Origin: Bugula neritina
Lineage: Eukaryota; Bryozoa; Gymnolaemata; Cheilostomatida; Bugulidae
Direction of reading: 5' to 3'
NCBI GenBank assembly: GCA_964035545.1
Contig: OZ037767.1
Span: 13,015,301-13,079,300 of the forward strand
Length of the DNA stretch: 64,000 bases
Shown piece after piece: positions 2,746 to 61,738 of the stretch. Each line of letters starts with the position of its first letter. The stretch's first letter is position 1. The notes beneath the pieces were generated by a model. That model was given only the letters and a program-made list of their open reading frames with translations, did not search any database and had not been told where the DNA came from. A program made the translations under genes and the position numbers.

Positions 2746-5700
2746 CTTGAACAATTATGGATGTTGTTGCGGTTGTCGGTGTAGCGGTTGTTGGTGTTGA
2801 AGTAGTGGTGGGTGTTGTAGTAGTGGTTGGTGTTGTAGTGGTGGTGGGTGTTGTCGTGGTAGTGGGTGTTGTTGTAGTTGTGGGCGTGGTAGTAGTGGTT
2901 GGCGGTGTAGTGGTGGTGGGTGTTGTTGTGGTTGTGGGTGTTGTTGTGGTTGTGGGCGTGGTAGTAGTTGTGGGTGTTGTAGTAGTGGTTGGTGTTGCAG
3001 TAGTGGTTGGTGTTGTCGTGGTAGTGGGTGTTGTCGTGGTAGTGGGTGTTGTCGTAGTTGTGGGTGTGGTAGTAGTGGTTGTGGGTGTGGTAGTAGTGGT
3101 TGGTGTTGTAGTGGTGGTGGGTGTTGTTGTGGTTGTGGGTGTTGTTATGGTTGTGGGTGTGGTGGTAGTTGTGGGTGTTAATGTGGTTGTGGGTGTGGTA
3201 GTAGTTGTGGGTGTTGTGGTGGTTGTGGGTGTTGTAGTAGTGGTTGGTGTTGTAGTGGTGGTTGGTGTTGTAGTAGTGGTTGGTGTTGTCGTGGTAGTGG
3301 GTGTTGTCGTGGTTGTGGGTGTGGTAGTAGTGGTGGGTGTTGTAGTAGTGGTTGGTGTTGTCGTGGTTGTGGGTGTTGTTGTCGTTGTAGGTGTGGTAGT
3401 AGTTGTGGGTGTTGTAATAGTGCTTGGTGTTGTAGTAGTGGTTGGTGTTGTCGTGGTAGTGGGTGTTGTCGTGGTTGTGGGCGTGGTAGTAGTGGTTGGT
3501 GTTGTAGTGGTGGTGGGTGTTGTAGTAGTGGTTGGTGTTGTAGTAGTGGTTGGTGTTGAAGTCGTGCTGGGTGTTGTCGTGGTTGTGGGTGTTGTTGTCG
3601 TTGTAGGTGTGGTAGTAGTTGTGGGTCTTGTGGTAGTGGTTGGAGTTGTAGTAGTGGTTGGTGTTGTCGTGGTAGTGGGTGTTGTTGTGGTTGTGGGTGT
3701 GGTAGAAGTGGTTAGTGTCGTAGTGGTGGTGGGTGTTGTTGTGGTTGTGGGTGTTGTTGTGGTTGTGGGCGTGGTAGTAATTGTGGGTGTTGTAGTAGTG
3801 GTTGGTGTTGTCGTTGTAGTGGGTGTTGTCGTGGTTGTGGGCGTGGTAGTAGTGGTTGTTGTTGTAGTGGTGGTGGGGGTTGTTGTGGTTGTGGGTGTTG
3901 TCGTGGTTGTGGGTGTTGTTGTGGTTGTGGGTGTGGTAGTAGTTGTGGGTGTCGTAGTAGTGGTTGGTGTTGTAGTAGTGGTTGGTGTTGTAGTAGTGGT
4001 TGGTGTTGTAGTAGTGGTTGGTGTTGTAGTCGTGCTGGGTGTTGTGGTGGTTGTGGGTGTTGTTGTCGTTGTGGGTGTTGTTGTGGTTGTGGGTGTTGTC
4101 ATGGTTGTGGGTGTGGTAGTAGTAGTGGGTGTTGTAGTAGTGGTTGGTGTTGTAGTGGTGGTTAGTAATGTAGTGGTGGTGGGTGTTGTAGTAGTGGTTG
4201 GTGTTGTAGTGGTGGTTGGTGTTGTCGTGGTAGTGGGTGTTGTTGTGGTTGTGGGTGTGGTAGTAGTGGTTGGTGTTGTAGTGGTGGTTGGTGTTGTCGT
4301 GGTAGTGGGTGTTGTTGTGGTTGTGGGTGTTGTAGTAGTGGTTGGTGTTGTCGTGGTAGTGGGTGTTGTCGTGGTTGTGGGCGTGGTAGTAGTGGTTGGT
4401 GTTGTAGTGGTGGTGGGTGTTGTTGTGGTAGTGGGTGTTGTCGTGGTTGTGGGTGTGGTAGTAGTGGTTGGTGTTGTAGTAGTGGTGGGTGTTGTCGTGG
4501 TTGTAGGTGTTGCAGTGGTGGTGGGTGTTGTGGTTGTTGTGGGCGTCGTAGTCGTGGTAGGTGTTGTAGTAGTGGTTAAAGTCGTAGTAGTCGTGGGTGT
4601 TGTCGTGGTTGTGGGTGTGGTAGTAGTGGTGGGTGTTGTAGTAGTCGTGGGTGTTGTAGTAGTGGTTGGTGTTGTAGTGGTGGTTAGTAATGTAGTGGTG
4701 GTGGGTGTTGTAGTAGTGGTTGGTGTTGTAGTGGTGGTTGGTGTTGTAGTAGTGGTTGGTGTTGTCGTGGTAGTGGGTGTTGTCGTGGTTGTGGGTGTGG
4801 TAGTAGTGGTGGGTGTTGTAGTAGTGGTTGGTGTTGTAGTGGTGGTTAGTAATGTAGTGGTGGTGGGTGTTGTAGTAGTGGTTGGTGTTGTAGTAGTGAT
4901 TGGTGTTGTAGTGGTGGTTAGTAATGTAGTGGTGGTGGGTGTTGTAGTAGTGGTTGGTGTTGTAGTAGTGGTTGGTGTTGTCGTGGTTGTGGGTGTTGTC
5001 GTGGTAGTGGGTGTTGTCGTGGTTGTGGGCGTGGTAGTAGTGGTTGGTGTTGTAGTGGGGGTGGGTGTTGTTGTGGTTGTGGGTGTTGTTGTGGTTGTGG
5101 GTGTGGTAGTAGTTGTGGGTGTCGTAGAAGTGGTTGGTGTTGTAGTAGTGGTTGGTGTTGTAGTAGTGGTTGGTGTTGTCGTGGTTGTGGGTGTTGTTGT
5201 CGTTGTAGGTGTGGTAGTAGTTGTGGGTGTTGTAATAGTGCTTGGTGTTGTAGTAGTGGTTGGTGTTGTCGTGGTAGTGGGTGTTGTCGTGGTTGTGGGC
5301 GTGGTAGTAGTGGTTGGTGTTGTAGTGGTGGTGGGTGTTGTAGTAGTGGTTGGTGTTGTAGTAGTGGTTGGTGTTGAAGTCGTGCTGGGTGTTGTCGTGG
5401 TTGTGGGTGTTGTTGTCGTTGTAGGTGTGGTAGTAGTTGTGGGTCTTGTGGTAGTGGTTGGAGTTGTAGTAGTGGTTGGTGTTGTCGTGGTAGTGGGTGT
5501 TGTTGTGGTTGTGGGTGTGGTAGAAGTGGTTAGTGTCGTAGTGGTGGTGGGTGTTGTTGTGGTTGTGGGTGTTGTTGTGGTTGTGGGTGTTGTTGTGGTT
5601 GTGGGTGTGGTAGTAGTTGTGGGTGTTCTGGTGGTTGTGGGCGTCGTAGTTGTGGTTGGTGTTGTAGTGGTGATGGGTGTTGTTGTGGTTGTGGGTGTGG

Positions 5701-38700: not shown

Positions 38701-41700
38701 TAGTGGTTGGTGTTGTAGTAGTGGTTGGTGTTGTAGTAGTGGTTGGTGTTGTAGTAGTGGTTGGTGTTGTCGTGGTAGTGGGTGTTATTGTGGTTGTGGG
38801 TGTGGTAGTAGTTGTGGGTGTTGTAGTGGTGGTGGGTGTTGTTGTGGTTGTGGGTGTTGTTGTGGTTGTGGGTGTGGTAGTAGTTGTGGGTGTCGTAGTA
38901 GTGGTTGGTGTTGTAGTAGTGGTTGGTGTTGTAGTATTGGTTGGTGTTGTCGTGGTAGTGGGTGTTGTCGTGGTTGTGGGCGTGGTAGTAGTGGTTGGTA
39001 GTGTAGTGGTGGTGGGTGTTGTAGTAGTGGTTGGTGTTGTAGTAGTGGTTGGTGTTGTAGTAGTGGTTGGTGTTGTAGTCGTGCTGGGTGTTGTCGTGGT
39101 TGTGGGTGTTGTTGTCGTTGTAGGTGTGGTAGTAGTTGTGGGTCTTGTAGTAGTGGTTGGAGTTGTAGTAGTGGTTGGTGTTGTCGTGGTGGTGGGTGTT
39201 GTCGTGGTTGTGGGTGTGGTAGTAGTGGTTGGTGTTGTAGTGGTGGTGGGTGTTGTTGTGGTTGTGGGTGTTGTTGTGAATGTGGGTGTGGTAGTAGTTG
39301 TGGGTGTCGTAGTAGTGGTGGGTGTTGTCGTGGTAGTGGGTGTTGTCGTGGTTGTGGGCGTGGTAGTAGTTGTAGGTGTTGTAGTAGTGGTGGGTGTTGT
39401 TGTGGTTGTGGGTGTTGTTGTGGTTGTGGGTGTTGTAGTAGTCGTGGGTGTTGTAGTAGTGGTTGGTGTTGTAGTGGTGGTTAGTAATGTAGTGGTTGTG
39501 GGTGTGGTAGTAGTGGTTGGTGTTGTAGTGGTGGTGGGTGTTGTTGTGGTTGTGGGCGTGGTAGTAGTTGTAGGTGTTGTAGTAGTGGTGGGTGTTGTTG
39601 TGGTTGTGGGTGTTGTTGTGGTTGCGGGTGTTGTAATAGCCGTGGGTGTTGTAGTAGTGGTTGGTGTTGTAGTGGTGGTTAGTAATGTAGTGGTTGTGGG
39701 TGTGGTAGTAGTGGTTGGTGTTGTAGTAGTGGTTGGTGTTGTCGTGGTTGTGGGTGTTGTTGTGGTTGTGGGCGTGGTAGTAGTTGTGGGTGTTGTAGTA
39801 GTGGTTGGTGTTGTCGTGGTAGTGGGTGTTGTCGTGGTTGTGGGCGTGGTAGTAGTGGTTGGTGTTGTAGTGGTGGTGGGTGTTGTCTTGGTTGTGGGTG
39901 TTGTTGTGGTTGTGGGTGTGGTAGTAGTTGTGGGTGTTGTAGTAGTGGTTGGTGTGGTAGTGGTGGTTGGTGTTGTGGTAGTGGTTGGTGTTGTAGTAGT
40001 AGTTGGTGTTGTGGTTGTGGTTGGTGTTGTAGTAGTGGTTGGTGTTGTAGTCGTGCTAGGTGTTGTCGTGGTTGTGGGTGTTGTTGTGGTTGTAGGTGTG
40101 GTAGTAGTTGTGGGTGTTGTAATAGTGCTTGGTGTTGTAGTAGTGGTTGGTGTTGTAGTATTGGTTGGTGTTGTCGTGGTAGTGGGTGTTGTTGTGGTTG
40201 TGGGTGTTGTAGTAGTGGTTGGTGTTGTAGTAGTGGTTAGTGTGGTAGTGGTGGTTGGTGTTGTGGTAGTGGTTGGAGTTGTGGTTGTGGTTGGTGTTGT
40301 AGTAGTGGTTGGTGTTGTAGTCGTGCTGGGTCTTGTCGTGGTTGTGGGTGTTGTTGTGATTGTAGGTGTGGTAGTAGTTGTGGGTGTTGTAGTAGTGGTT
40401 GGTGTTGTAGTAGTGGTTGGTGTTGTCGTGGTAGTGGGTGTTGTTGTGGTTGTGGGTGTGGTAGTAGTGGTTGGTGTTGTAGTGGTGGTGGGTGTTGTAG
40501 TAGTGGTTGGTGTTGTAGTCGTGCTGGGTGTTGTCGTGGTTGTGGGTGTTGTCGTGGTGGTGGGTGTTCTCGTGGTTGTGGGCGTGGTAGTAGTGGTTGT
40601 TGTTGTAGTGGTGGAGGGTGTTGTTGTAGTTGTGGGTGTTGTTGTGATTGTGGGTGTGATAGTAGTTGTGGGTCTTGTAGTAGTGGTTGGTGTTGTTGTG
40701 GTTGTGGGTGTTGTTGTGGTTGTGGGTGTTGTAGTAGTGGTTGGTATTGTAGTAGTGGTTAGTGTGGTAGTGGTGGTTGGTGTTGTAGTGGTGGTTAGTA
40801 ATGTAGTGGTTGTGGGTGTGGTAGTAGTGGTTGGTGTTGTAGCGGTGGTGGGTGTTGTTGTGGTTGTGGGCGTGGTAGTAGTTGTAGGTGTTGTAGTAGT
40901 GGTGGGTGTTGTTGTGGTTGTGGGTGTTGTTGTGGTTGCGGGTGTTGTAGTAGCCGTGGGTGTTGTTGTAGTGGTTGGTGTTGTAGTGGTGGTTAGTAAT
41001 GTAGTGGTTGTGGGTGTGGTAGTAGTGGTTGGTGTTGTAGTAGTGGTTGGTGTTGTAGTAGTGGTTGGTGTTGTCGTGGTAGTGGGTGTTGTCGTGGTTG
41101 TGGGCGTGGTAGTAGTGGTTGGTGTTGTAGTGGTGGTGGGTGTTGTCTTGGTTGTGGGTGTTGTTGTGGTTGTGGGTGTGGTAGTAGTTGTGGGTGTTGT
41201 AGTAGTGGTTGGTGTGGTAGTGGTGGTTGGTGTTGTGGTAGTGGTTGGTGTTGTAGTAGTAGTTGGTGTTGTGGTTGTGGTTGGTGTTGTAGTAGTGGTT
41301 GGTGTTGTAGTCGTGCTAGGTGTTGTCGTGGTTGTGGGTGTTGTTGTGGTTGTAGGTGTGGTAGTAGTTGTGGGTGTTGTAATAGTGCTTGGTGTTGTAG
41401 TAGTGGTTGGTGTTATCGTAGTAGTGGGTGTTGTCGTGGTTGTGGGCGTGGTAGTAGTTGTTGGTGTTGTAGTGGTGGTGGGTGTTGTTGTGGTTGTGGG
41501 TGTTGTTGTGATTGTGGGTGTGATAGTAGTTGTGGGTCTTGTAGTAGTGGTTGGTGTTGTTGTGGTTGTGGGTGTTGTTGTGGTTGTGGGTGTTGTAGTA
41601 GTGGTTGGTGTTGTAGTAGTGGTTAGTGTGGTAGTGGTGGTTGGTGTTGTGGTAGTGGTTGGAGTTGTGGTTGTGGTTGGTGTTGTAGTAGTGGTTGGTG

Positions 41701-44700
41701 TTGTAGTCGTGCTGGGTCTTGTCGTGGTTGTGGGTGTTGTTGTGGTTGTAGGTGTGGTAGTAGTTGTGGGTGTTGTAGTAGTGGTTGGTGTTGTAGTAGT
41801 GGTTGGTGTTGTCGTGGTAGTGGGTGTTGTTGTGGTTGTGGGTGTGGTAGTAGTGGTTGGTGTTGTAGTGGTGGTGGGTGTTGTAGTAGTGGTTGGTGTT
41901 GTAGTCGTGCTGGGTGTTGTCGTGGTTGTGGGTGTTGTCGTGGTGGTGGGTGTTCTCGTGGTTGTGGGCGTGGTAGTAGTGGTTGTTGTTGTAGTGGTGG
42001 AGGGTGTTGTTGTAGTTGTGAGTGTTGTTGTGATTGTGGGTGTGATAGTAGTTGTGGGTCTTGTAGTAGTGGTTGGTGTTGTTGTGGTTGTGGGTGTTGT
42101 TGTGGTTGTGGGTGTTGTAGTAGTGGTTGGTATTGTAGTAGTGGTTAGTGTGGTAGTGGTGGTTGGTGTTGTAGTAGTGGTTAGAGTTGTGGTTGTGGTT
42201 GGTGTTGTAGTAGTGGTTGGTGTTGTAGTCGTGCTGGGTCTTGTCGTGGTTGTGGGTGTTGTTGTGGTTGTAGGTGTGGTAGTAGTTGTGGGTGTTGTAG
42301 TAGTGGTTGGTGTGGTAGTGGTGGTTGGTGTTGTGGTAGTGGTTGGTGTTGTAGTAGTAGTTGGTGTTGTGGTTGTGGTTGGTGTTGTAGTAGTGGTTGG
42401 TGTTGTAGTCGTGCTAGGTGTTGTCGTGGTTGTGGGTGTTGTTGTGGTTGTAGGTGTGGTAGTAGTTGTGGGTGTTGTAATAGTGCTTGGTGTTGTAGTA
42501 GTGGTTGGTGTTATCGTAGTAGTGGGTGTTGTCGTGGTTGTGGGCGTGGTAGTAGTTGTTGGTGTTGTAGTGGTGGTGGGTGTTGCTGTGGTTGTGGGTG
42601 TTGTTGTGATTGTGGGTGTGATAGTAGTTGTGGGTCTTGTAGTAGTGGTTGGTGTTGTTGTGGTTGTGGGTGTTGTTGTGGTTGTGGGTGTTGTAGTAGT
42701 GGTTGGTGTTGTAGTAGTGGTTAGTGTGGTAGTGGTGGTTGGTGTTGTGGTAGTGGTTGGAGTTGTGGTTGTGGTTGGTGTTGTAGTAGTGGTTGGTGTT
42801 GTAGTCGTGCTGGGTCTTGTCGTGGTTGTGGGTGTTGTTGTGGTTGTAGGTGTGGTAGTAGTTGTGGGTGTTGTAGTAGTGGTTGGTGTTGTAGTAGTGG
42901 TTGGTGTTGTCGTGGTAGTGGGTGTTGTTGTGGTTGTGGGTGTGGTAGTAGTGGTTGGTGTTGTAGTGGTGGTGGGTGTTGTAGTAGTGGTTGGTGCTGT
43001 AGTCGTGCTGGGTGTTGTCGTGGTTGTGGGTGTTGTCGTGGTGGTGGGTGTTCTCGTGGTTGTGGGCGTGGTAGTAGTGGTTGTTGTTGTAGTGGTGGAG
43101 GGTGTTGTTGTAGTTGTGAGTGTTGTTGTGATTGTGGGTGTGATAGTAGTTGTGGGTCTTGTAGTAGTGGTTGGTGTTGTTGTGGTTGTGGGTGTTGTTG
43201 TGGTTGTGGGTGTTGTTGTGGTTCCGGGTGTTGTAGTAGCCGTGGGTGTTGTAGTAGTGGTTGGTGTTGTAGTGGTGGTTAGTAATGTAGTGGTTGTGGG
43301 TGTGGTAGTAGTGGTTGGTGTTGTAGTAGTGGTTGGTGTTGTTGTGGTTGTGGGTGTTGTTGTGGTTGTGGGCGTGGTAGTAGTTGTGGGTGTTGTAGTA
43401 GTGGTTGGTGTTGTCGTGGTAGTGGGTGTTGTCGTGGTTGTGGGCGTGGTAGTAGTGGTTGGTGTTGTAGTGGTGGTGGGTGTTGTCTTGGTTGTGGGTG
43501 TTGTTGTGGTTGTGGGTGTGGTAGTAGTTGTGGGTGTTGTAGTAGTGGTTGGTGTGGTAGTGGTGGTTGGTGTTGTGGTAGTGGTTGGTGTTGTAGTAGT
43601 AGTTGGTGTTGTGGTTGTGGTTGGTGTTGTAGTAGTGGTTGGTGTTGTAGTCGTGCTAGGTGTTGTCGTGGTTGTGGGTGTTGTTGTGGTTGTAGGTGTG
43701 GTAGTAGTTGTGGGTGTTGTAATAGTGCTTGGTGTTGTAGTAGTAGTTGGTGTTATCGTGGTAGTGGGTGTTGTCGTGGTTGTGGGCGTGGTAGTAGTTG
43801 TTGGTGTTGTAGTGGTGGTGGGTGTTGTTGTGGTTGTGGGTGTTGTTGTGATTGTGGGTGTGATAGTAGTTGTGGGTCTTGTAGTAGTGGTTGGTGTTGT
43901 TGTGGTTGTGGGTGTTGTTGTGGTTGTGGGTGTTGTAGTAGTGGTTGGTGTTGTAGTAGTGGTTAGTGTGGTAGTGGTGGTTGGTGTTGTGGTAGTGGTT
44001 GGAGTTGTGGTTGTGGTTGGTGTTGTAGTAGTGGTTGGTGTTGTAGTCGTGCTGGGTCTTGTCGTGGTTGTGGGTGTTGTTGTGGTTGTAGGTGTGGTAG
44101 TAGTTGTGGGTGTTGTAGTAGTGGTTGGTGTTGTAGTAGTGGTTGGTGTTGTCGTGGTAGTGGGTGTTGTTGTGGTTGTGGGTGTGGTAGTAGTGGTTGG
44201 TGTTGTAGTGGTGGTGGGTGTTGTAGTAGTGGTTGGTGTTGTAGTCGTGCTGGGTGTTGTCGTGGTTGTGGGTGTTGTCGTGGTAGTGGGTGTTCTCGTG
44301 GTTGTGGGCGTGGTAGTAGTGGTTGGTGTTGTAGTGGTGGTGGGTGTTGTTGTAGTTGCGGGTGTTGTTGTGGTTGTGGGTGTGGTAGTAGTTGTGGGTG
44401 TCGTAGTAGTGGTTGGTGTGGTAGTAGTTGTCGGTGTTGTAGTAGTGGTTGGTGTTGTCGTGGTAGTGGGTGTTGTAGTCGTGCTGGGTGTTGTCGTGGT
44501 TGTGGGTGTTGTTGTCGTTGTAGGTGTGGTAGTAGTTGTGGGTCTTGTAGTAGTGGTTGGAGTTGTAGTAGTGGTTGGTGTTGTCGTGGTGGTGGGTGTT
44601 GTCGTGGTTGTGGGTGTGGTAGTAGTGGTTGGTGTTGTAGTGGTGGTGGGTGTTGTTGTGGTTGTGGGTGTTGTTGTGGTTGTGGGTGTGGTAGTAGTTG

Positions 44701-47700
44701 TGGGTGTCGTAGTAGTGGTGGGTGTTGTCGTGGTAGTGGGTGTTGTCGTGGTTGTGGGCGTGGTAGTAGTTGTAGGTGTTGTAGTAGTGGTGGGTGTTGT
44801 TGTGGTTGTGGGTGTTGTTGTGGTTGTGGGTGTTGTAGTAGTCATGGGTGTTGTAGTAGTGGTTGGTGTTGTAGTGGTGGTTAGTAGTGTAGTGGTTGTG
44901 GGTGTGGTAGTAGTGGTTGGTGTTGTAGTGGTGGTGGGTGTTGTTGTGGTTGTGGGTGTTGTTGTGGTTGTGGGTGTGGTAGTAGTTGTGGGTGTCGTAG
45001 TAGTGGTTGGTGTGGTAGTAGTTGTCGGTGTTGTAGTAGTGGTTGGTGTTGTCGTGGTAGTGGGTGTTGTCGTGGTTGTGGGTGTTGTAGTAGTGGTTGG
45101 TGTTGTAGTGGTGGTGGGTGTTGTTGTGGTTGTGGGTGTTGTTGTGGTTGTGGGTGTTGTTGTGGTGGTGGGTGTTGTAGTAGTGGTGGGTGTTGTAGTG
45201 GTGGTTGGTGTTGTAGTAGTGGTTGGTGTTGTCGTGGTAGTGGGTGTTGTTGTGGTTGTGGGTGTGGTAGTAGTGGTTGGTGTTGTAGTGGTGGTGGGTG
45301 TTGTCGTGGTTGTGGGTGTTGTCGTGGTAGTGGGTGTTGTCGTGGTTGTGGGCGTGGTAGTAGTGGTTGGTGTTGTAGTAGTGGTTGGTGTTGTAGTAGT
45401 GGTTGGTGTTGTAGTAGTGGTTGGTGTTGTCGTGGTAGTGGGTGTTATTGTGGTTGTGGGTGTGGTAGTAGTTGTGGGTGTTGTAGTGGTGGTGGGTGTT
45501 GTTGTGGTTGTGGGTGTTGTTGTGGTTGTGGGTGTGGTAGTAGTTGTGGGTGTCGTAGTAGTGGTTGGTGTTGTAGTAGTGGTTGGTGTTGTAGTATTGG
45601 TTGGTGTTGTCGTGGTAGTGGGTGTTGTCGTGGTTGTGGGCGTGGTAGTAGTGGTTGGTAGTGTAGTGGTGGTGGGTGTTGTAGTAGTGGTTGGTGTTGT
45701 AGTAGTGGTTGGTGTTGTAGTAGTGGTTGGTGTTGTAGTCGTGCTGGGTGTTGTCGTGGTTGTGGGTGTTGTTGTCGTTGTAGGTGTGGTAGTAGTTGTG
45801 GGTCTTGTAGTAGTGGTTGGAGTTGTAGTAGTGGTTGGTGTTGTCGTGGTGGTGGGTGTTGTCGTGGTTGTGGGTGTGGTAGTAGTGGTTGGTGTTGTAG
45901 TGGTGGTGGGTGTTGTTGTGGTTGTGGGTGTTGTTGTGAATGTGGGTGTGGTAGTAGTTGTGGGTGTCGTAGTAGTGGTGGGTGTTGTCGTGGTAGTGGG
46001 TGTTGTCGTGGTTGTGGGCGTGGTAGTAGTTGTAGGTGTTGTAGTAGTGGTGGGTGTTGTTGTGGTTGTGGGTGTTGTTGTGGTTGTGGGTGTTGTAGTA
46101 GTCGTGGGTGTTGTAGTAGTGGTTGGTGTTGTAGTGGTGGTTAGTAATGTAGTGGTTGTGGGTGTGGTAGTAGTGGTTGGTGTTGTAGTGGTGGTGGGTG
46201 TTGTTGTGGTTGTGGGCGTGGTAGTAGTTGTAGGTGTTGTAGTAGTGGTGGGTGTTGTTGTGGTTGTGGGTGTTGTTGTGGTTGCGGGTGTTGTAATAGC
46301 CGTGGGTGTTGTAGTAGTGGTTGGTGTTGTAGTGGTGGTTAGTAATGTAGTGGTTGTGGGTGTGGTAGTAGTGGTTGGTGTTGTAGTAGTGGTTGGTGTT
46401 GTCGTGGTTGTGGGTGTTGTTGTGGTTGTGGGCGTGGTAGTAGTTGTGGGTGTTGTAGTAGTGGTTGGTGTTGTCGTGGTAGTGGGTGTTGTCGTGGTTG
46501 TGGGCGTGGTAGTAGTGGTTGGTGTTGTAGTGGTGGTGGGTGTTGTCTTGGTTGTGGGTGTTGTTGTGGTTGTGGGTGTGGTAGTAGTTGTGGGTGTTGT
46601 AGTAGTGGTTGGTGTGGTAGTGGTGGTTGGTGTTGTGGTAGTGGTTGGTGTTGTAGTAGTAGTTGGTGTTGTGGTTGTGGTTGGTGTTGTAGTAGTGGTT
46701 GGTGTTGTAGTCGTGCTAGGTGTTGTCGTGGTTGTGGGTGTTGTTGTGGTTGTAGGTGTGGTAGTAGTTGTGGGTGTTGTAATAGTGCTTGGTGTTGTAG
46801 TAGTGGTTGGTGTTATCGTAGTAGTGGGTGTTGTCGTGGTTGTGGGCGTGGTAGTAGTTGTTGGTGTTGTAGTGGTGTTGGGTGTTGTTGTGGTTGTGGG
46901 TGTTGTTGTGATTGTGGGTGTGATAGTAGTTGTGGGTCTTGTAGTAGTGGTTGGTGTTGTTGTGGTTGTGGGTGTTGTTGTGGTTGTGGGTGTTGTAGTA
47001 GTGGTTGGTGTTGTAGTAGTGGTTAGTGTGGTAGTGGTGGTTGGTGTTGTGGTAGTGGTTGGAGTTGTGGTTGTGGTTGGTGTTGTAGTAGTGGTTGGTG
47101 TTGTAGTCGTGCTGGGTCTTGTCGTGGTTGTGGGTGTTGTTGTGATTGTAGGTGTGGTAGTAGTTGTGGGTGTTGTAGTAGTGGTTGGTGTTGTAGTAGT
47201 GGTTGGTGTTGTCGTGGTAGTGGGTGTTGTTGTGGTTGTGGGTGTGGTAGTAGTGGTTGGTGTTGTAGTGGTGGTGGGTGTTGTAGTAGTGGTTGGTGTT
47301 GTAGTCGTGCTGGGTGTTGTCGTGGTTGTGGGTGTTGTCGTGGTGGTGGGTGTTCTCGTGGTTGTGGGCGTGGTAGTAGTGGTTGTTGTTGTAGTGGTGG
47401 AGGGTGTTGTTGTAGTTGTGGGTGTTGTTGTGATTGTGGGTGTGATAGTAGTTGTGGGTCTTGTAGTAGTGGTTGGTGTTGTTGTGGTTGTGGGTGTTGT
47501 TGTGGTTGTGGGTGTTGTAGTAGTGGTTGGTATTGTAGTAGTGGTTAGTGTGGTAGTGGTGGTTGGTGTTGTAGTAGTGGTTGGAGTTGTGGTTGTGGTT
47601 GGTGTTGTAGTAGTGGTTGGTGTTGTAGTCGTGCTGGGTCTTGTCGTGGTTGTGGGTGTTGTTGTGGTTGCAGGTGTGGTAGTAGTTGTGGGTGTTGTAG

Positions 47701-50700
47701 TAGTGGTTGGTGTTGTAGTAGTGGTTGGTGTTGTCGTGGTAGTGGGTGTTGTTGTGGTTGTGGGTGTGGTAGTAGTGGTTGGTGTTGTAGTGGTGGTTAG
47801 TAATGTAGTGGTTGTGGGTGTGGTAGTAGTGGTTGGTGTTGTAGTGGTGGTGGGTGTTGTTGTGGTTGTGGGCGTGGTAGTAGTTGTAGGTGTTGTAGTA
47901 GTGGTGGGTGTTGTTGTGGTTGTGGGTGTTGTTGTGGTTGCGGGTGTTGTAATAGCCGTGGGTGTTGTAGTAGTGGTTGGTGTTGTAGTGGTGGTTAGTA
48001 ATGTAGTGGTTGTGGGTGTGGTAGTAGTGGTTGGTGTTGTAGTAGTGGTTGGTGTTGTCGTGGTTGTGGGTGTTGTTGTGGTTGTGGGCGTGGTAGTAGT
48101 TGTGGGTGTTGTAGTAGTGGTTGGTGTTGTCGTGGTAGTGGGTGTTGTCGTGGTTGTGGGCGTGGTAGTAGTGGTTGGTGTTGTAGTGGTGGTGGGTGTT
48201 GTCTTGGTTGTGGGTGTTGTTGTGGTTGTGGGTGTGGTAGTAGTTGTGGGTGTTGTAGTAGTGGTTGGTGTGGTAGTGGTGGTTGGTGTTGTGGTAGTGG
48301 TTGGTGTTGTAGTAGTAGTTGGTGTTGTGGTTGTGGTTGGTGTTGTAGTAGTGGTTGGTGTTGTAGTCGTGCTAGGTGTTGTCGTGGTTGTGGGTGTTGT
48401 TGTGGTTGTAGGTGTGGTAGTAGTTGTGGGTGTTGTAATAGTGCTTGGTGTTGTAGTAGTGGTTGGTGTTGTAGTATTGGTTGGTGTTGTCGTGGTAGTG
48501 GGTGTTGTTGTGGTTGTGGGTGTTGTAGTAGTGGTTGGTGTTGTAGTAGTGGTTAGTGTGGTAGTGGTGGTTGGTGTTGTGGTAGTGGTTGGAGTTGTGG
48601 TTGTGGTTGGTGTTGTAGTAGTGGTTGGTGTTGTAGTCGTGCTGGGTCTTGTCGTGGTTGTGGGTGTTGTTGTGATTGTAGGTGTGGTAGTAGTTGTGGG
48701 TGTTGTAGTAGTGGTTGGTGTTGTAGTAGTGGTTGGTGTTGTCGTGGTAGTGGGTGTTGTTGTGGTTGTGGGTGTGGTAGTAGTGGTTGGTGTTGTAGTG
48801 GTGGTGGGTGTTGTAGTAGTGGTTGGTGTTGTAGTCGTGCTGGGTGTTGTCGTGGTTGTGGGTGTTGTCGTGGTGGTGGGTGTTCTCGTGGTTGTGGGCG
48901 TGGTAGTAGTGGTTGTTGTTGTAGTGGTGGAGGGTGTTGTTGTAGTTGTGGGTGTTGTTGTGATTGTGGGTGTGATAGTAGTTGTGGGTCTTGTAGTAGT
49001 GGTTGGTGTTGTTGTGGTTGTGGGTGTTGTTGTGGTTGTGGGTGTTGTAGTAGTGGTTGGTATTGTAGTAGTGGTTAGTGTGGTAGTGGTGGTTGGTGTT
49101 GTAGTGGTGGTTAGTAATGTAGTGGTTGTGGGTGTGGTAGTAGTGGTTGGTGTTGTAGCGGTGGTGGGTGTTGTTGTGGTTGTGGGCGTGGTAGTAGTTG
49201 TAGGTGTTGTAGTAGTGGTGGGTGTTGTTGTGGTTGTGGGTGTTGTTGTGGTTGCGGGTGTTGTAGTAGCCGTGGGTGTTGTTGTAGTGGTTGGTGTTGT
49301 AGTGGTGGTTAGTAATGTAGTGGTTGTGGGTGTGGTAGTAGTGGTTGGTGTTGTAGTAGTGGTTGGTGTTGTAGTAGTGGTTGGTGTTGTCGTGGTAGTG
49401 GGTGTTGTCGTGGTTGTGGGCGTGGTAGTAGTGGTTGGTGTTGTAGTGGTGGTGGGTGTTGTCTTGGTTGTGGGTGTTGTTGTGGTTGTGGGTGTGGTAG
49501 TAGTTGTGGGTGTTGTAGTAGTGGTTGGTGTGGTAGTGGTGGTTGGTGTTGTGGTAGTGGTTGGTGTTGTAGTAGTAGTTGGTGTTGTGGTTGTGGTTGG
49601 TGTTGTAGTAGTGGTTGGTGTTGTAGTCGTGCTAGGTGTTGTCGTGGTTGTGGGTGTTGTTGTGGTTGTAGGTGTGGTAGTAGTTGTGGGTGTTGTAATA
49701 GTGCTTGGTGTTGTAGTAGTGGTTGGTGTTATCGTAGTAGTGGGTGTTGTCGTGGTTGTGGGCGTGGTAGTAGTTGTTGGTGTTGTAGTGGTGGTGGGTG
49801 TTGTTGTGGTTGTGGGTGTTGTTGTGATTGTGGGTGTGATAGTAGTTGTGGGTCTTGTAGTAGTGGTTGGTGTTGTTGTGGTTGTGGGTGTTGTTGTGGT
49901 TGTGGGTGTTGTAGTAGTGGTTGGTGTTGTAGTAGTGGTTAGTGTGGTAGTGGTGGTTGGTGTTGTGGTAGTGGTTGGAGTTGTGGTTGTGGTTGGTGTT
50001 GTAGTAGTGGTTGGTGTTGTAGTCGTGCTGGGTCTTGTCGTGGTTGTGGGTGTTGTTGTGGTTGTAGGTGTGGTAGTAGTTGTGGGTGTTGTAGTAGTGG
50101 TTGGTGTTGTAGTAGTGGTTGGTGTTGTCGTGGTAGTGGGTGTTGTTGTGGTTGTGGGTGTGGTAGTAGTGGTTGGTGTTGTAGTGGTGGTGGGTGTTGT
50201 AGTAGTGGTTGGTGTTGTAGTCGTGCTGGGTGTTGTCGTGGTTGTGGGTGTTGTCGTGGTGGTGGGTGTTCTCGTGGTTGTGGGCGTGGTAGTAGTGGTT
50301 GTTGTTGTAGTGGTGGAGGGTGTTGTTGTAGTTGTGAGTGTTGTTGTGATTGTGGGTGTGATAGTAGTTGTGGGTCTTGTAGTAGTGGTTGGTGTTGTTG
50401 TGGTTGTGGGTGTTGTTGTGGTTGTGGGTGTTGTAGTAGTGGTTGGTATTGTAGTAGTGGTTAGTGTGGTAGTGGTGGTTGGTGTTGTAGTAGTGGTTAG
50501 AGTTGTGGTTGTGGTTGGTGTTGTAGTAGTGGTTGGTGTTGTAGTCGTGCTGGGTCTTGTCGTGGTTGTGGGTGTTGTTGTGGTTGTAGGTGTGGTAGTA
50601 GTTGTGGGTGTTGTAGTAGTGGTTGGTGTGGTAGTGGTGGTTGGTGTTGTGGTAGTGGTTGGTGTTGTAGTAGTAGTTGGTGTTGTGGTTGTGGTTGGTG

Positions 50701-53700
50701 TTGTAGTAGTGGTTGGTGTTGTAGTCGTGCTAGGTGTTGTCGTGGTTGTGGGTGTTGTTGTGGTTGTAGGTGTGGTAGTAGTTGTGGGTGTTGTAATAGT
50801 GCTTGGTGTTGTAGTAGTGGTTGGTGTTATCGTAGTAGTGGGTGTTGTCGTGGTTGTGGGCGTGGTAGTAGTTGTTGGTGTTGTAGTGGTGGTGGGTGTT
50901 GCTGTGGTTGTGGGTGTTGTTGTGATTGTGGGTGTGATAGTAGTTGTGGGTCTTGTAGTAGTGGTTGGTGTTGTTGTGGTTGTGGGTGTTGTTGTGGTTG
51001 TGGGTGTTGTAGTAGTGGTTGGTGTTGTAGTAGTGGTTAGTGTGGTAGTGGTGGTTGGTGTTGTGGTAGTGGTTGGAGTTGTGGTTGTGGTTGGTGTTGT
51101 AGTAGTGGTTGGTGTTGTAGTCGTGCTGGGTCTTGTCGTGGTTGTGGGTGTTGTTGTGGTTGTAGGTGTGGTAGTAGTTGTGGGTGTTGTAGTAGTGGTT
51201 GGTGTTGTAGTAGTGGTTGGTGTTGTCGTGGTAGTGGGTGTTGTTGTGGTTGTGGGTGTGGTAGTAGTGGTTGGTGTTGTAGTGGTGGTGGGTGTTGTAG
51301 TAGTGGTTGGTGCTGTAGTCGTGCTGGGTGTTGTCGTGGTTGTGGGTGTTGTCGTGGTGGTGGGTGTTCTCGTGGTTGTGGGCGTGGTAGTAGTGGTTGT
51401 TGTTGTAGTGGTGGAGGGTGTTGTTGTAGTTGTGAGTGTTGTTGTGATTGTGGGTGTGATAGTAGTTGTGGGTCTTGTAGTAGTGGTTGGTGTTGTTGTG
51501 GTTGTGGGTGTTGTTGTGGTTGTGGGTGTTGTTGTGGTTCCGGGTGTTGTAGTAGCCGTGGGTGTTGTAGTAGTGGTTGGTGTTGTAGTGGTGGTTAGTA
51601 ATGTAGTGGTTGTGGGTGTGGTAGTAGTGGTTGGTGTTGTAGTAGTGGTTGGTGTTGTTGTGGTTGTGGGTGTTGTTGTGGTTGTGGGCGTGGTAGTAGT
51701 TGTGGGTGTTGTAGTAGTGGTTGGTGTTGTCGTGGTAGTGGGTGTTGTCGTGGTTGTGGGCGTGGTAGTAGTGGTTGGTGTTGTAGTGGTGGTGGGTGTT
51801 GTCTTGGTTGTGGGTGTTGTTGTGGTTGTGGGTGTGGTAGTAGTTGTGGGTGTTGTAGTAGTGGTTGGTGTGGTAGTGGTGGTTGGTGTTGTGGTAGTGG
51901 TTGGTGTTGTAGTAGTAGTTGGTGTTGTGGTTGTGGTTGGTGTTGTAGTAGTGGTTGGTGTTGTAGTCGTGCTAGGTGTTGTCGTGGTTGTGGGTGTTGT
52001 TGTGGTTGTAGGTGTGGTAGTAGTTGTGGGTGTTGTAATAGTGCTTGGTGTTGTAGTAGTAGTTGGTGTTATCGTGGTAGTGGGTGTTGTCGTGGTTGTG
52101 GGCGTGGTAGTAGTTGTTGGTGTTGTAGTGGTGGTGGGTGTTGTTGTGGTTGTGGGTGTTGTTGTGATTGTGGGTGTGATAGTAGTTGTGGGTCTTGTAG
52201 TAGTGGTTGGTGTTGTTGTGGTTGTGGGTGTTGTTGTGGTTGTGGGTGTTGTAGTAGTGGTTGGTGTTGTAGTAGTGGTTAGTGTGGTAGTGGTGGTTGG
52301 TGTTGTGGTAGTGGTTGGAGTTGTGGTTGTGGTTGGTGTTGTAGTAGTGGTTGGTGTTGTAGTCGTGCTGGGTCTTGTCGTGGTTGTGGGTGTTGTTGTG
52401 GTTGTAGGTGTGGTAGTAGTTGTGGGTGTTGTAGTAGTGGTTGGTGTTGTAGTAGTGGTTGGTGTTGTCGTGGTAGTGGGTGTTGTTGTGGTTGTGGGTG
52501 TGGTAGTAGTGGTTGGTGTTGTAGTGGTGGTGGGTGTTGTAGTAGTGGTTGGTGTTGTAGTCGTGCTGGGTGTTGTCGTGGTTGTGGGTGTTGTCGTGGT
52601 AGTGGGTGTTCTCGTGGTTGTGGGCGTGGTAGTAGTGGTTGGTGTTGTAGTGGTGGTGGGTGTTGTTGTAGTTGCGGGTGTTGTTGTGGTTGTGGGTGTG
52701 GTAGTAGTTGTGGGTGTCGTAGTAGTGGTTGGTGTGGTAGTAGTTGTCGGTGTTGTAGTAGTGGTTGGTGTTGTCGTGGTAGTGGGTGTTGTAGTCGTGC
52801 TGGGTGTTGTCGTGGTTGTGGGTGTTGTTGTCGTTGTAGGTGTGGTAGTAGTTGTGGGTCTTGTAGTAGTGGTTGGAGTTGTAGTAGTGGTTGGTGTTGT
52901 CGTGGTGGTGGGTGTTGTCGTGGTTGTGGGTGTGGTAGTAGTGGTTGGTGTTGTAGTGGTGGTGGGTGTTGTTGTGGTTGTGGGTGTTGTTGTGGTTGTG
53001 GGTGTGGTAGTAGTTGTGGGTGTCGTAGTAGTGGTGGGTGTTGTCGTGGTAGTGGGTGTTGTCGTGGTTGTGGGCGTGGTAGTAGTTGTAGGTGTTGTAG
53101 TAGTGGTGGGTGTTGTTGTGGTTGTGGGTGTTGTTGTGGTTGTGGGTGTTGTAGTAGTCATGGGTGTTGTAGTAGTGGTTGGTGTTGTAGTGGTGGTTAG
53201 TAGTGTAGTGGTTGTGGGTGTGGTAGTAGTGGTTGGTGTTGTAGTGGTGGTGGGTGTTGTTGTGGTTGTGGGTGTTGTTGTGGTTGTGGGTGTGGTAGTA
53301 GTTGTGGGTGTCGTAGTAGTGGTTGGTGTGGTAGTAGTTGTCGGTGTTGTAGTAGTGGTTGGTGTTGTCGTGGTAGTGGGTGTTGTCGTGGTTGTGGGTG
53401 TTGTAGTAGTGGTTGGTGTTGTAGTGGTGGTGGGTGTTGTTGTGGTTGTGGGTGTTGTTGTGGTTGTGGGTGTTGTTGTGGTGGTGGGTGTTGTAGTAGT
53501 GGTGGGTGTTGTAGTGGTGGTTGGTGTTGTAGTAGTGGTTGGTGTTGTCGTGGTAGTGGGTGTTGTTGTGGTTGTGGGTGTGGTAGTAGTGGTTGGTGTT
53601 GTAGTGGTGGTGGGTGTTGTCGTGGTTGTGGGTGTTGTCGTGGTAGTGGGTGTTGTCGTGGTTGTGGGCGTGGTAGTAGTGGTTGGTGTTGTAGTAGTGG

Positions 53701-56700
53701 TTGGTGTTGTAGTAGTGGTTGGTGTTGTAGTAGTGGTTGGTGTTGTCGTGGTAGTGGGTGTTATTGTGGTTGTGGGTGTGGTAGTAGTTGTGGGTGTTGT
53801 AGTGGTGGTGGGTGTTGTTGTGGTTGTGGGTGTTGTTGTGGTTGTGGGTGTGGTAGTAGTTGTGGGTGTCGTAGTAGTGGTTGGTGTTGTAGTAGTGGTT
53901 GGTGTTGTAGTATTGGTTGGTGTTGTCGTGGTAGTGGGTGTTGTCGTGGTTGTGGGCGTGGTAGTAGTGGTTGGTAGTGTAGTGGTGGTGGGTGTTGTAG
54001 TAGTGGTTGGTGTTGTAGTAGTGGTTGGTGTTGTAGTAGTGGTTGGTGTTGTAGTCGTGCTGGGTGTTGTCGTGGTTGTGGGTGTTGTTGTCGTTGTAGG
54101 TGTGGTAGTAGTTGTGGGTCTTGTAGTAGTGGTTGGAGTTGTAGTAGTGGTTGGTGTTGTCGTGGTGGTGGGTGTTGTCGTGGTTGTGGGTGTGGTAGTA
54201 GTGGTTGGTGTTGTAGTGGTGGTGGGTGTTGTTGTGGTTGTGGGTGTTGTTGTGAATGTGGGTGTGGTAGTAGTTGTGGGTGTCGTAGTAGTGGTGGGTG
54301 TTGTCGTGGTAGTGGGTGTTGTCGTGGTTGTGGGCGTGGTAGTAGTTGTAGGTGTTGTAGTAGTGGTGGGTGTTGTTGTGGTTGTGGGTGTTGTTGTGGT
54401 TGTGGGTGTTGTAGTAGTCGTGGGTGTTGTAGTAGTGGTTGGTGTTGTAGTGGTGGTTAGTAATGTAGTGGTTGTGGGTGTGGTAGTAGTGGTTGGTGTT
54501 GTAGTGGTGGTGGGTGTTGTTGTGGTTGTGGGCGTGGTAGTAGTTGTAGGTGTTGTAGTAGTGGTGGGTGTTGTTGTGGTTGTGGGTGTTGTTGTGGTTG
54601 CGGGTGTTGTAATAGCCGTGGGTGTTGTAGTAGTGGTTGGTGTTGTAGTGGTGGTTAGTAATGTAGTGGTTGTGGGTGTGGTAGTAGTGGTTGGTGTTGT
54701 AGTAGTGGTTGGTGTTGTCGTGGTTGTGGGTGTTGTTGTGGTTGTGGGCGTGGTAGTAGTTGTGGGTGTTGTAGTAGTGGTTGGTGTTGTCGTGGTAGTG
54801 GGTGTTGTCGTGGTTGTGGGCGTGGTAGTAGTGGTTGGTGTTGTAGTGGTGGTGGGTGTTGTCTTGGTTGTGGGTGTTGTTGTGGTTGTGGGTGTGGTAG
54901 TAGTTGTGGGTGTTGTAGTAGTGGTTGGTGTGGTAGTGGTGGTTGGTGTTGTGGTAGTGGTTGGTGTTGTAGTAGTAGTTGGTGTTGTGGTTGTGGTTGG
55001 TGTTGTAGTAGTGGTTGGTGTTGTAGTCGTGCTAGGTGTTGTCGTGGTTGTGGGTGTTGTTGTGGTTGTAGGTGTGGTAGTAGTTGTGGGTGTTGTAATA
55101 GTGCTTGGTGTTGTAGTAGTGGTTGGTGTTATCGTAGTAGTGGGTGTTGTCGTGGTTGTGGGCGTGGTAGTAGTTGTTGGTGTTGTAGTGGTGTTGGGTG
55201 TTGTTGTGGTTGTGGGTGTTGTTGTGATTGTGGGTGTGATAGTAGTTGTGGGTCTTGTAGTAGTGGTTGGTGTTGTTGTGGTTGTGGGTGTTGTTGTGGT
55301 TGTGGGTGTTGTAGTAGTGGTTGGTGTTGTAGTAGTGGTTAGTGTGGTAGTGGTGGTTGGTGTTGTGGTAGTGGTTGGAGTTGTGGTTGTGGTTGGTGTT
55401 GTAGTAGTGGTTGGTGTTGTAGTCGTGCTGGGTCTTGTCGTGGTTGTGGGTGTTGTTGTGATTGTAGGTGTGGTAGTAGTTGTGGGTGTTGTAGTAGTGG
55501 TTGGTGTTGTAGTAGTGGTTGGTGTTGTCGTGGTAGTGGGTGTTGTTGTGGTTGTGGGTGTGGTAGTAGTGGTTGGTGTTGTAGTGGTGGTGGGTGTTGT
55601 AGTAGTGGTTGGTGTTGTAGTCGTGCTGGGTGTTGTCGTGGTTGTGGGTGTTGTCGTGGTGGTGGGTGTTCTCGTGGTTGTGGGCGTGGTAGTAGTGGTT
55701 GTTGTTGTAGTGGTGGAGGGTGTTGTTGTAGTTGTGGGTGTTGTTGTGATTGTGGGTGTGATAGTAGTTGTGGGTCTTGTAGTAGTGGTTGGTGTTGTTG
55801 TGGTTGTGGGTGTTGTTGTGGTTGTGGGTGTTGTAGTAGTGGTTGGTATTGTAGTAGTGGTTAGTGTGGTAGTGGTGGTTGGTGTTGTAGTAGTGGTTGG
55901 AGTTGTGGTTGTGGTTGGTGTTGTAGTAGTGGTTGGTGTTGTAGTCGTGCTGGGTCTTGTCGTGGTTGTGGGTGTTGTTGTGGTTGCAGGTGTGGTAGTA
56001 GTTGTGGGTGTTGTAGTAGTGGTTGGTGTTGTAGTAGTGGTTGGTGTTGTCGTGGTAGTGGGTGTTGTTGTGGTTGTGGGTGTGGTAGTAGTGGTTGGTG
56101 TTGTAGTGGTGGTGGGTGTTGTAGTAGTGGTTGGTGTTGTAGTCGTTCTGGGTGTTGTCGTGGTTGTGGGTGTTGTCGTGGTAGTGGGTGTTCTCGTGGT
56201 TGTGGGCGTGGTAGTAGTGGTTGGTGTTGTAGTGGTGGTGGGTGTTGTTGTAGTTGTGGGTGTTGTTGTGGTTGTGGGTGTGGTAGTAGTTGTGGGTGTC
56301 GTAGTAGTGGTTGGTGTGGTAGTAGTTGTCGGTGTTGTAGTAGTGGTTGGTGTTGTCGTGGTAGTGGGTGTTGTAGTCGTGCTGGGTGTTGTCGTGGTTG
56401 TGGGTGTTGTTGTCGTTGTAGGTGTGGTAGTAGTTGTGGGTCTTGTAGTAGTGGTTGGAGTTGTAGTAGTGGTTGGTGTTGTCGTGGTGGTGGGTGTTGT
56501 CGTGGTTGTGGGTGTGGTAGTAGTGGTTGGTGTTGTAGTGGTGGTGGGTGTTGTTGTGGTTGTGGGTGTTGTTGTGGTTGTGGGTGTGGTAGTAGTTGTG
56601 GGTGTCGTAGTAGTGGTGGGTGTTGTCGTGGTAGTGGGTGTTGTCGTGGTTGTGGGCGTGGTAGTAGTTGTAGGTGTTGTAGTAGTGGTGGGTGTTGTTG

Positions 56701-59700: not shown

Positions 59701-61738
59701 GTGTTGTCGTGGTAGTGGGTGTTGTTGTGGTTGTGGGTGTGGTAGTAGTGGTTGGTGTTGTAGTGGTGGTGGGTGTTGTAGTAGTGGTTGGTGTTGTAGT
59801 CGTGCTGGGTGTTGTCGTGGTTGTGGGTGTTGTCGTGGTGGTGGGTGTTCTCGTGGTTGTGGGCGTGGTAGTAGTGGTTGTTGTTGTAGTGGTGGAGGGT
59901 GTTGTTGTAGTTGTGGGTGTTGTTGTGATTGTGGGTGTGATAGTAGTTGTGGGTCTTGTAGTAGTGGTTGGTGTTGTTGTGGTTGTGGGTGTTGTTGTGG
60001 TTGTGGGTGTTGTAGTAGTGGTTGGTATTGTAGTAGTGGTTAGTGTGGTAGTGGTGGTTGGTGTTGTAGTAGTGGTTGGAGTTGTGGTTGTGGTTGGTGT
60101 TGTAGTAGTGGTTGGTGTTGTAGTCGTGCTGGGTCTTGTCGTGGTTGTGGGTGTTGTTGTGGTTGCAGGTGTGGTAGTAGTTGTGGGTGTTGTAGTAGTT
60201 GTGGGTGTTGTTGTGGTAGTGGGTGTTGTCGTGGTTGTGGGCGTGGTAGTAGTGGTTGGTGTTGTAGTGGTGGTGGGTGTTGTCTTGGTTGTGGGTGTTG
60301 TTGTGGTTGTGGGTGTGGTAGTAGTTGTGGGTGTTGTAGTAGTGGTTGGTGTGGTAGTGGTGGTTGGTGTTGTGGTAGTGGTTGGTGTTGTAGTAGTAGT
60401 TGGTGTTGTGGTTGTGGTTGGTGTTGTAGTAGTGGTTGGTGTTGTAGTCGTGCTAGGTGTTGTCGTGGTTGTGGGTGTTGTTGTGGTTGTAGGTGTGGTA
60501 GTAGTTGTGGGTGTTGTAATAGTGCTTGGTGTTGTAGTAGTGGTTGGTGTTATCGTGGTAGTGGGTGTTGTCGTGGTTGTGGGCGTGGTAGTAGTTGTTG
60601 GTGTTGTAGTGGTGGTGGGTGTTGTTGTGGTTGTGGGTGTTGTTGTGGTTTTGGGTGTGGTAGTAGTGGTTGTGGGTGTGGTAGTAGTGGTTGGTGTTGT
60701 AGTGGTGGTGGGTGTTGTTGTGGTTGTGGGTGTTGTTGTGGTTGTGGGTGTGGTAGTAGTTGTGGGTGTCGTCGTAGTGGTTGGTGTTGTAGTAGTGGTT
60801 GGTGTTGTAGTAGTGGTTGGTGTTGTAGTAGTGGTTGGTGTTGTAGTCGTGCTGGGTGTTGTCGTGGTTGTGGGTGTGGTAGTAGTGGTGGGTGTTGTAG
60901 TAGTCGTGGGTGTTGTAGTAGTGGTTGGTGTTGTAGTGGTGGTTAGTAATGTAGTGGTGGTGGGTGTTGTAGTAGTGGTTGGTGTTGTAGTGGTGGTTGG
61001 TGTTGTAGTAGTGGTTGGTGTTGTCGTGGTAGTGGGTGTTGTTGTGGTTGTGGGTGTGGTAGTAGTGGTTGGTGTTGTAGTGGTGGTGGGTGTTGTCGTG
61101 GTTGTGGGTGTTGTCGTTGTAGTGGGTGTTCTCGTGGTTGTGGGCGTGGTAGTAGTGGTTGGTGTTGTAGTGGTGGTGGGTGTTGTTGTGGTTGTGGGTG
61201 TTGTTGTGGTTGTGGGTGTGGTAGTAGTTGTGGGTGTGGTAGTAGTTGTGGGTGTTGTAGTAGTTGTGGGTGTCGTAGTAGTGGTTGGTGTTGTAGTAGT
61301 GGTTGGTGTTGTACTAGTGGTTGGTGTTGTAGTAGTGGTTGGTGTTGTAGTCGTGCTGGGTGTTGTCGTGGTTGTGGGTGTTGTTGTCGTTGTGGGTGTC
61401 GTAGTAGTTGTGGGTCTTGTAGTAGTGGTTGGAGTTGTAGTAGTGGTTGGTGTTGTCGTGGTAGTGGGTGTTGTCGTGGTTGTGGGTGTGGTAGTAGTGG
61501 TTGGTGTTGTAGTAGTGGTGGGTGTTGTAGTAGTGGTTGGTGTTGTAGTAGTGGTTGGTGTTGTGGTAGTGGTGGGTGTTGTAGTAGTGGTGGTGGATTT
61601 GGTAGTTGTTGGTGATGTTGCTGCTGTTTCACTTGCTACAAATATGCTCGGTGTACATGTGTTCATTGTCTGTTGTAGTACTAGTACCAGAATCACCTTT
61701 TGTAGTACGTTGATCATCATTTGGGAGATTTTCATTCT
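2746..61738 (-). CDS. Giant Thr/Pro-rich mucin-like protein, repeat-bearing portion (two exons)
   Basis: An uninterrupted minus-strand reading frame (61735 to 2633, about 19,700 codons) consists almost wholly of the hexapeptide Thr5-Pro. My exon model starts at an acceptor (TTTAG before 61738), has a 42-nt exon (61738-61697), a 61-nt intron and one exon 61635-2746 of 58,890 nt (19,630 codons), ending at the donor CAAG/GTAAT. Exon ends are phase 1 throughout. About five sixths of residues are Thr. Departures are mostly single substitutions (Pro to Leu; Thr to Ser, Ile, Ala, Arg, Lys, Asn, Met). From family knowledge, such Thr/Pro arrays are dense O-glycosylation scaffolds of secreted or membrane mucins. 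The role here is inferred. The first ATG of the frame (61735) lies just inside the acceptor, so it is probably not the true start. A real signal peptide is expected upstream and was not found. Alternative: a non-genic coding-like satellite, which the flanking phase-matched exons argue against. Confidence 0.7.
3100..19700 (-). repeat. Duplication of a block of about 7.9 to 8.9 kb
   Basis: Markers recur at 7,866 bp (Asn unit 3175 and 11041; GTTGAA 3555 and 11421), then 7,920 bp (4081 and 12001; Gly unit 7653 and 15573), then 8,892 bp (7909 and 16801) and 8,697 bp (Ala unit 10814 and 19511). The changing offset shows later insertions and losses inside one copy, all in whole codons. Confidence 0.75.
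14884..16827 (-). repeat. Local 972-bp tandem duplication
   Basis: A block of 54 units around 14884-15855 is repeated immediately (15573 and 16545 Gly units; the GGTGGTTGGGG unit at 14881 and 15853). It is absent from the matching place in the older copy (about 7,9xx), where the offset jumps from 7,920 to 8,892 bp, so it arose after the 7.9-kb duplication. Confidence 0.8.
22949..30796 (-). repeat. Tandem duplication of a 3,924-bp block of the array
   Basis: Rare markers in about 22949-26872 recur exactly 3,924 bp (218 units) later in about 26873-30796. Examples are the Asn unit at 24361 and 28285, the Ala unit at 23630 and 27554, and the odd GTTGAG unit at 25695 and 29619. I noticed only isolated differences between copies (T at 25701 against C at 29625; A at 26598 against G at 30522), so the event is recent. 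Breakpoints are approximate. Confidence 0.85.
34120..47570 (-). repeat. Tandem duplication of a block of about 6.66 kb
   Basis: Markers in about 34120-40780 recur 6,660 bp (370 units) later: Ala unit 34181 and 40841, Gly unit GTTCC 36561 and 43221, TGTAGTTGCG 37691 and 44351. Near 40150-40200 the first copy lacks about seven units, shifting the offset to 6,786 bp at the end. Breakpoints lie near a TTAGTA-bearing unit. Confidence 0.8.
39475..56106 (-). repeat. Tandem duplication of an 8,316-bp block, overlapping the 6.66-kb event
   Basis: Markers in about 39475-47790 recur 8,316 bp (462 units) later in about 47791-56106: Ala unit 40841 and 49157, Gly unit 43221 and 51537, TAGTATTGG 40156 and 48472. 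The duplicated block contains the junction of the 6.66-kb duplication (about 40780, copied to about 49095), so this event is younger. Confidence 0.8.
57800..61400 (-). repeat. Duplication of about 1,785 bp near the N-terminal end of the array
   Basis: The GATTGTGGGTGTGATAG unit at 58141 recurs at 59926, and the seven-codon unit near 58871 recurs at 60656; both offsets are 1,785 bp. This is 595 codons but not a whole number of 18-bp units, because a Thr6-Pro type unit is included. Confidence 0.65.
61636..61696 (-). other. Probable 61-nt mini-intron
   Basis: The minus strand has GTGATT at the left junction and ATTTGTAG at the right. Removing it joins two Thr-containing, phase-1 exons and eliminates an in-frame TGA. 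The length is not a multiple of three, which explains why the unspliced DNA keeps the array open only in the other frame. Introns this short occur in compact animal genomes. The polypyrimidine tract is weak, so this stays a prediction. Confidence 0.5.
61697..61738 (-). CDS. Short 42-nt exon preceding the repeat exon
   Basis: RNA-sense acceptor GCTTTAG precedes 61738 and donor AAAAG/GTGATT follows 61697. Read with one preceding G (phase 1), the exon encodes ENENLPNDDQRTTK, an acidic, polar peptide typical of mucin flanks. The same frame continues after the next acceptor as ASETAATSPTTTK and then the Thr5-Pro array. Both ends are phase 1 and the length is a multiple of three. If the exon were not spliced here, this frame would hit a TGA about 110 nt after the acceptor, inside the proposed intron. 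The alternative frame through the same DNA is open from a Met at 61735 and would encode a short hydrophobic run (VILVLVL) usable as a weak signal peptide, so the start remains undecided. Confidence 0.5.

Follow-up and report, generated by a model that had tools for sequence, protein, structure and literature searches.

The minus-strand Thr5-Pro array of Bugula neritina described here is an extreme open array that is real as sequence and most likely coding, and it lies in a gene of a transmembrane mucin-like family. In our preferred explanation, to which we assign a probability of about 0.82, the array would represent the first coding exon of its gene, and the product would be a type I transmembrane, mucin-like protein of giant size. 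The first-pass annotation of this DNA had proposed that a coding exon specifies a Thr-rich scaffold and precedes an EGF-like exon, which remains the best reading and is supported by paralogous genes. The window, i.e. the whole stretch of 64,000 bases that was analyzed, is located on contig C3 (13,015,301-13,079,300), and the gene with the giant array is named G3 among its paralogs. Coordinates follow the numbering of the window, with negative values and values above 64,000 referring to flanking contig DNA beyond it (Table 1).

Table 1. Coordinates of the features assigned to G3 (slashes mark exon-intron borders)
Feature	Position	Strand	Remarks
Exon 1, coding part: ATG, hydrophobic leader, (Thr5-Pro)n, phase-1 donor	2746..61735	-	58,990 nt
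Acceptor-like AG immediately 5' of ATG	61736..61740	-	4/4 aligned leaders
Leader MKISQMMINVLQKVILVLVLQQTMNTCTPSIFVA, likely signal peptide	61634..61735	-	aligned with three paralogous leaders
Thr5-Pro array, 18-nt units with higher-order repeats	2753..61627	-	3,241 in-register units, 157 DNA types
Exact 8,345-bp repeat, two tandem copies, offset 8,316	39453..56113	-	first copy 47769-56113; second from offset
Splice donor CAAG/GTAATC, array end, phase 1	2740..2746	-	set by eye
EGF-like exon with six Cys, phase 1 at both borders	779..895	-	
Exon after EGF-like exon, phase 1 to phase 0	460..596	-	
Exon	-72..-136	-	outside window
Exon with RRKR (dibasic site)	-258..-523	-	outside window
Transmembrane exon	-1167..-1267	-	outside window
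Tail exon	-1843..-2045	-	outside window
Last exon with stop	-2306..-2357	-	outside window

Open frame, exon limits and predicted product

A frame scan of the window identified a stop-free minus-strand frame of 19,701 codons (61738 to 2636) that encodes 15,671 Thr and 3,130 Pro, while the other two sense frames contained 169 and 30 stops. The absence of stops is expected from the codon content of the Thr5-Pro frame. We consider openness to be weak evidence for coding and dropped it as proof, since Thr and Pro codons are rarely one substitution away from a stop (0.19% of the single substitutions in this frame create one, compared with 4.2% when all 61 codons are considered) and an equally long stretch (19,663 codons) is free of stops in the antisense Val5-Gly frame.

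Phase-1 splice sites had been proposed for both edges of the array. The GT donor after position 2746 in phase 1 was retained, while the acceptor at 61635 was rejected because the frame runs on to the ATG at 61735, the leader encoded there is common to G1 through G4 and the AG of the proposed acceptor, present in G1, G3 and G4, is replaced by GG in G2. The exon probably includes the start codon, judging from these alignments, and the acceptor at 61635 is probably wrong. The leader was in frame with the array in all four paralogs read there (G1-G4) and, with a top 9-residue mean hydropathy of 2.39 in G3, is a likely candidate signal peptide. In all four aligned leaders an AG was present no more than five bases from the ATG, which suggests either an intron in the 5' UTR or trans-splicing. 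A long C-rich tract with some T (61941-61990) lies upstream of the G3 start codon.

Splice sites and joins were set by eye and pattern, with an alignment of five paralogs aiding in the region between two of the exons. The joined G3 product comprised 19,976 aa with a mass of 2,018 kDa (approximately 2.02 MDa before sugars) and contained 15,695 Thr. Its transmembrane 19-mer (mean hydropathy 2.77) is followed by IRRR and a short tail, and the predicted topology, with one transmembrane segment and a cytoplasmic tail, corresponds to that of tethered mucins. When the C-terminal parts of G3 and G4, after joining, were scanned with Pfam, no family was identified at the cut-off; TM_ErbB1 and TNFR_nem appeared below it only. 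In a search for homologs of the joined EGF-to-tail part, not one among 1,143 candidates passed E 0.01, and an Rfam scan of the window returned 0 matches. Inside the intron 3' of the giant exon a 261-bp Thr5-Pro array in the opposite orientation was observed (1855-2115, plus strand), which is part of an open frame (1840-2220) and could represent either a stray copy or an exon that belongs to a different gene.

Paralogous genes

The neighboring genes G1, G2 and G4 share with G3 the leader, a donor after the array, the EGF-like exon, the exon with the dibasic site and the transmembrane exon. A donor-like site was present at the end of the array in all four paralogs read as DNA, with the sequence CAAG/GTAAT in G1 and G2 and TCAG/GTAAAT in G4. 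When read from the ATG past the donor, the open frames were 1,078 aa (G1), 1,201 aa (G2) and 5,136 aa (G4) in length. G5 (105857-109500, minus strand) has an array and downstream exons, and a search for its leader found none; its array mixes Thr5-Pro with TVAPP-like repeats and extends past the stretch that was read. Exons were joined in full by script for G3 and G4, for the three middle exons in G5 and for the same three by hand in G1 and G2, while G6 and G7 were left unjoined. All seven loci read (G1-G7) contained the six-Cys EGF-like motif, yet neither of the two joined proteins (G3 and G4) produced a Pfam EGF match. The transmembrane motif was present in six of the seven, the exception being G6, whose locus may end sooner.

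The exon that in G3 carries RRKR matched at least ten places in the genome, six on contig C3 (including G3), one on C4 and three on C1, among at least 22 matches in all. The open frame at -30287 to -29910 (minus strand) was rejected as the transmembrane exon of the family, because a search with it retrieved only its own sequence and a single weak stretch; it is a transmembrane exon that belongs to another gene, located between G1 and G2. Beyond the window, a 2,028-bp Thr5-Pro array was located at -101138 to -99111 (plus strand) with no adjoining match to the family leader.

Comparison of the seven non-array exons between G3 and G4 revealed 39 synonymous and 39 nonsynonymous differences (dS 0.207, dN 0.056, dN/dS 0.27). 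For the leader, dN/dS ranged from 0.19 (G1-G2) to 0.68 (G3-G4) over only about 22 synonymous sites, and from 0.39 to 0.68 in the pairs with G3, again with few sites. Due to the parts common to G1, G2 and G4 and the dN/dS of the non-array exons, paralogy provides better evidence for coding than openness does.

Array composition, recent change and alternative explanations

The array was confirmed as near-pure Thr5-Pro, with 79.9% Thr and 15.9% Pro among its 19,608 codons, a composition that corresponds to the large Pro/Thr/Ser tandem repeats of transmembrane mucins. The Thr-Pro frame was maintained over the entire array. Departures of the Pro spacing from the six-residue register numbered 42 and fell into 17 different DNA contexts; the majority were paired as 1+5 or 2+4 and thus represented Thr-to-Pro changes. 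True 3-nt indels were few, and the absence of frameshifts therefore constitutes modest evidence only. Among 2,929 clean units, a count that omits units with altered Pro (3,241 less 2,929), deviation from the commonest base amounted to 7-53% at third codon positions and 0-6% at first and second positions, with zero deviation at the Pro slot resulting from the choice of clean units with intact Pro.

Nonsynonymous change was barely depleted in recently duplicated blocks of the array. The 13 non-redundant recent blocks (32,580 bp), drawn from 267 segments, exhibited 28 synonymous and 46 nonsynonymous differences, corresponding to an omega of approximately 0.81 if mutation is modelled as uniform. 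A less stringent set, which comprises 178 overlapping runs, counts sites repeatedly and takes in unrelated unit pairs at run ends; it contained 6,368 synonymous and 3,780 nonsynonymous differences. We read these patterns as weak constraint on single residues together with older constraint on composition, the alternative reading being relaxed selection.

This near-neutral recent change is also what would be seen if the array were a recently expanded repeat in a gene no longer making protein, i.e. a recent pseudogene of the family, and a leader-like copy on contig C6 with two TAA indicates that broken family copies exist. We regard this explanation as unlikely, because the seven non-array exons of G3 and their splice sites are intact and their dN/dS relative to G4 is 0.27, even though some of this constraint may be older than a recent loss. 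It is very improbable that the repeat is non-coding or that the antisense Val5-Gly frame is the relevant one, with the Thr5-Pro frame as a by-product of the 18-nt unit. The comparable openness of the antisense frame would fit such an origin, but the leader, donor and downstream exons are all on the minus strand and conserved in the paralogs, and the variation among units tracks the codon positions of the Thr-Pro frame.

An explanation compatible with a coding first exon, and with an appreciable chance of applying even if short of even odds, is that the mucin-like gene is real and its array mis-sized due to kilobase blocks collapsed or duplicated by the assembler, in which case the exon would in reality be either shorter or longer than 58.9 kb. 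According to the genome note for tzBugNeri2.1, the assembly was based on 27.37 Gb in 2.82 million HiFi reads at approximately 132-fold coverage (PMC11480708), from which a mean read length of approximately 9.7 kb can be calculated. Reads of this length are too short for the 16.7 kb occupied by both copies of the exact tandem repeat, and the copy number of this 8.3-kb block is consequently insecure. The repeat is without a single difference, whereas most other blocks differ, and 38% of positions are located in exact matches of more than 1,000 bp. On the other hand, only four exact repeat pairs of at least 1,500 bp were detected, two of the remaining three measuring 4,228 bp and the third 2,757 bp, the median longest exact match was 636 bp, and coverage is high with an N count of 0 in the window. 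The proposal of one uninterrupted coding exon of about 58.9 kb held with respect to the frame, which is open for 58,990 nt from the ATG and has the support of the paralogs, while the 5' limit that was given did not hold and the length is uncertain in light of the 8,345-bp repeat.

Comparison with known giant mucins

MUC12, MUC3A and MUC17 have a signal peptide as well as EGF-like and transmembrane parts after the array, and MUC16 carries a very long Thr/Ser-rich extracellular array before its transmembrane segment together with many SEA modules. G3 resembles MUC16 in the very long Thr-rich array ahead of the transmembrane segment and differs in having one short unit and no SEA found by sequence. 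As described in a 2026 preprint (PMC13345508), MUC12, which with MUC3A and MUC17 belongs to the tethered mucins of chromosome 7, likewise has a giant Thr/Ser/Pro array in one exon and is part of a gene cluster. In contrast to MUC12, the 18-nt unit of G3 is nearly pure Thr5-Pro, SEA was not found by sequence and RRKR may be positioned roughly where SEA self-cleavage would be expected. The predicted G3 product is a very large, extreme example of an already known kind of protein. In the portion of PMC13326412 that was available, the word 'mucin' was absent.

The first-pass annotation had also ranked the exon above the largest known coding exons by comparison with MUC16, a claim that is outdated and doubtful given the MUC12 data. 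The preprint reports that predicted human MUC12 proteins range from 4,677 to 23,080 aa, gives 55,233 bp as the size range and describes the array exon of MUC12, in some people, as the human genome's largest single coding exon (PMC13345508). Unless more than approximately 3,400 residues are encoded outside it, the longest MUC12 exon would exceed 58,990 nt, which makes a 'largest coding exon' claim for G3 doubtful without disproving it. A human mucin allele reported there is probably larger than G3.

Membership of G3 among the SEA-type mucins (MUC1/3/12/13/16/17) was rejected at the sequence level, as Pfam, PDB profile and hhalign comparisons all failed to support it. The Pfam SEA family did not match the joined parts of G3 and G4, no Pfam family matched the SEA-like segments at E 10 (none of five aligned members), and the five genome matches to PF01390 were all on C2. 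A PDB profile search returned one unrelated chain (E 0.11). A search with the SEA-like alignment went through 6,815 candidates and retained six at E 0.1, each of them a metagenome protein of approximately one exon. By eye, the SEA-like segment and the MUC1 SEA domain have strand, cleavage region and strand in similar order (31% identity over 52 columns), but the likeness lacked significance in hhalign, which gave E 0.16 and a probability of 0.4%, compared with E 0.44 for the reversed control. With no SEA domain found by sequence, we refer to the product as mucin-like instead of filing it as a SEA-type mucin.

If the preferred reading applies, the leader would direct secretion of the G3 product, its Thr residues would be densely O-glycosylated, so that the stiffened chain forms a cell-surface brush some micrometres long, and a furin-type cut at RRKR may release the ectodomain. 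Array length would shift via in-frame exchange of 18-nt units and kilobase blocks, with selection probably seeing length and composition more than single residues. Since recent change in the array is near-neutral and the other exons are conserved, the notion that length matters and letters do not becomes testable. A more far-reaching and rather doubtful extension is that giant tethered mucins form a bryozoan family, with a furin-type site instead of SEA self-cleavage and with arrays that are selected for length instead of sequence. The G3 exon (about 59 kb) would then rank with the largest known coding exons and might be the largest outside vertebrates. Should the exon prove real at its assembled size, a single uninterrupted exon would be spliced, and its translation would yield a protein close to the largest known, with approximately 15,700 Thr residues. 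This would have implications for how exons are defined, for the supply of threonine and for the capacity of the Golgi, and giant one-exon mucin arrays would exist in a bryozoan as well as in mammals.

PF00535 had 31 matches in the genome; this family is not specific for mucin-type glycosyltransferases and some of the matches were on possibly contaminant contigs. COX1 matches of different kinds were observed on C17 (without TGA codons), C196 and C65, perhaps derived from cobionts or contaminants. A full-length COX1 match on nuclear contig C6 (11174072-11175412, minus strand) probably represents a recent nuclear copy of mitochondrial DNA, while on the mitochondrial contig C295 (15,248 bases) COX1 reads through with table 5.
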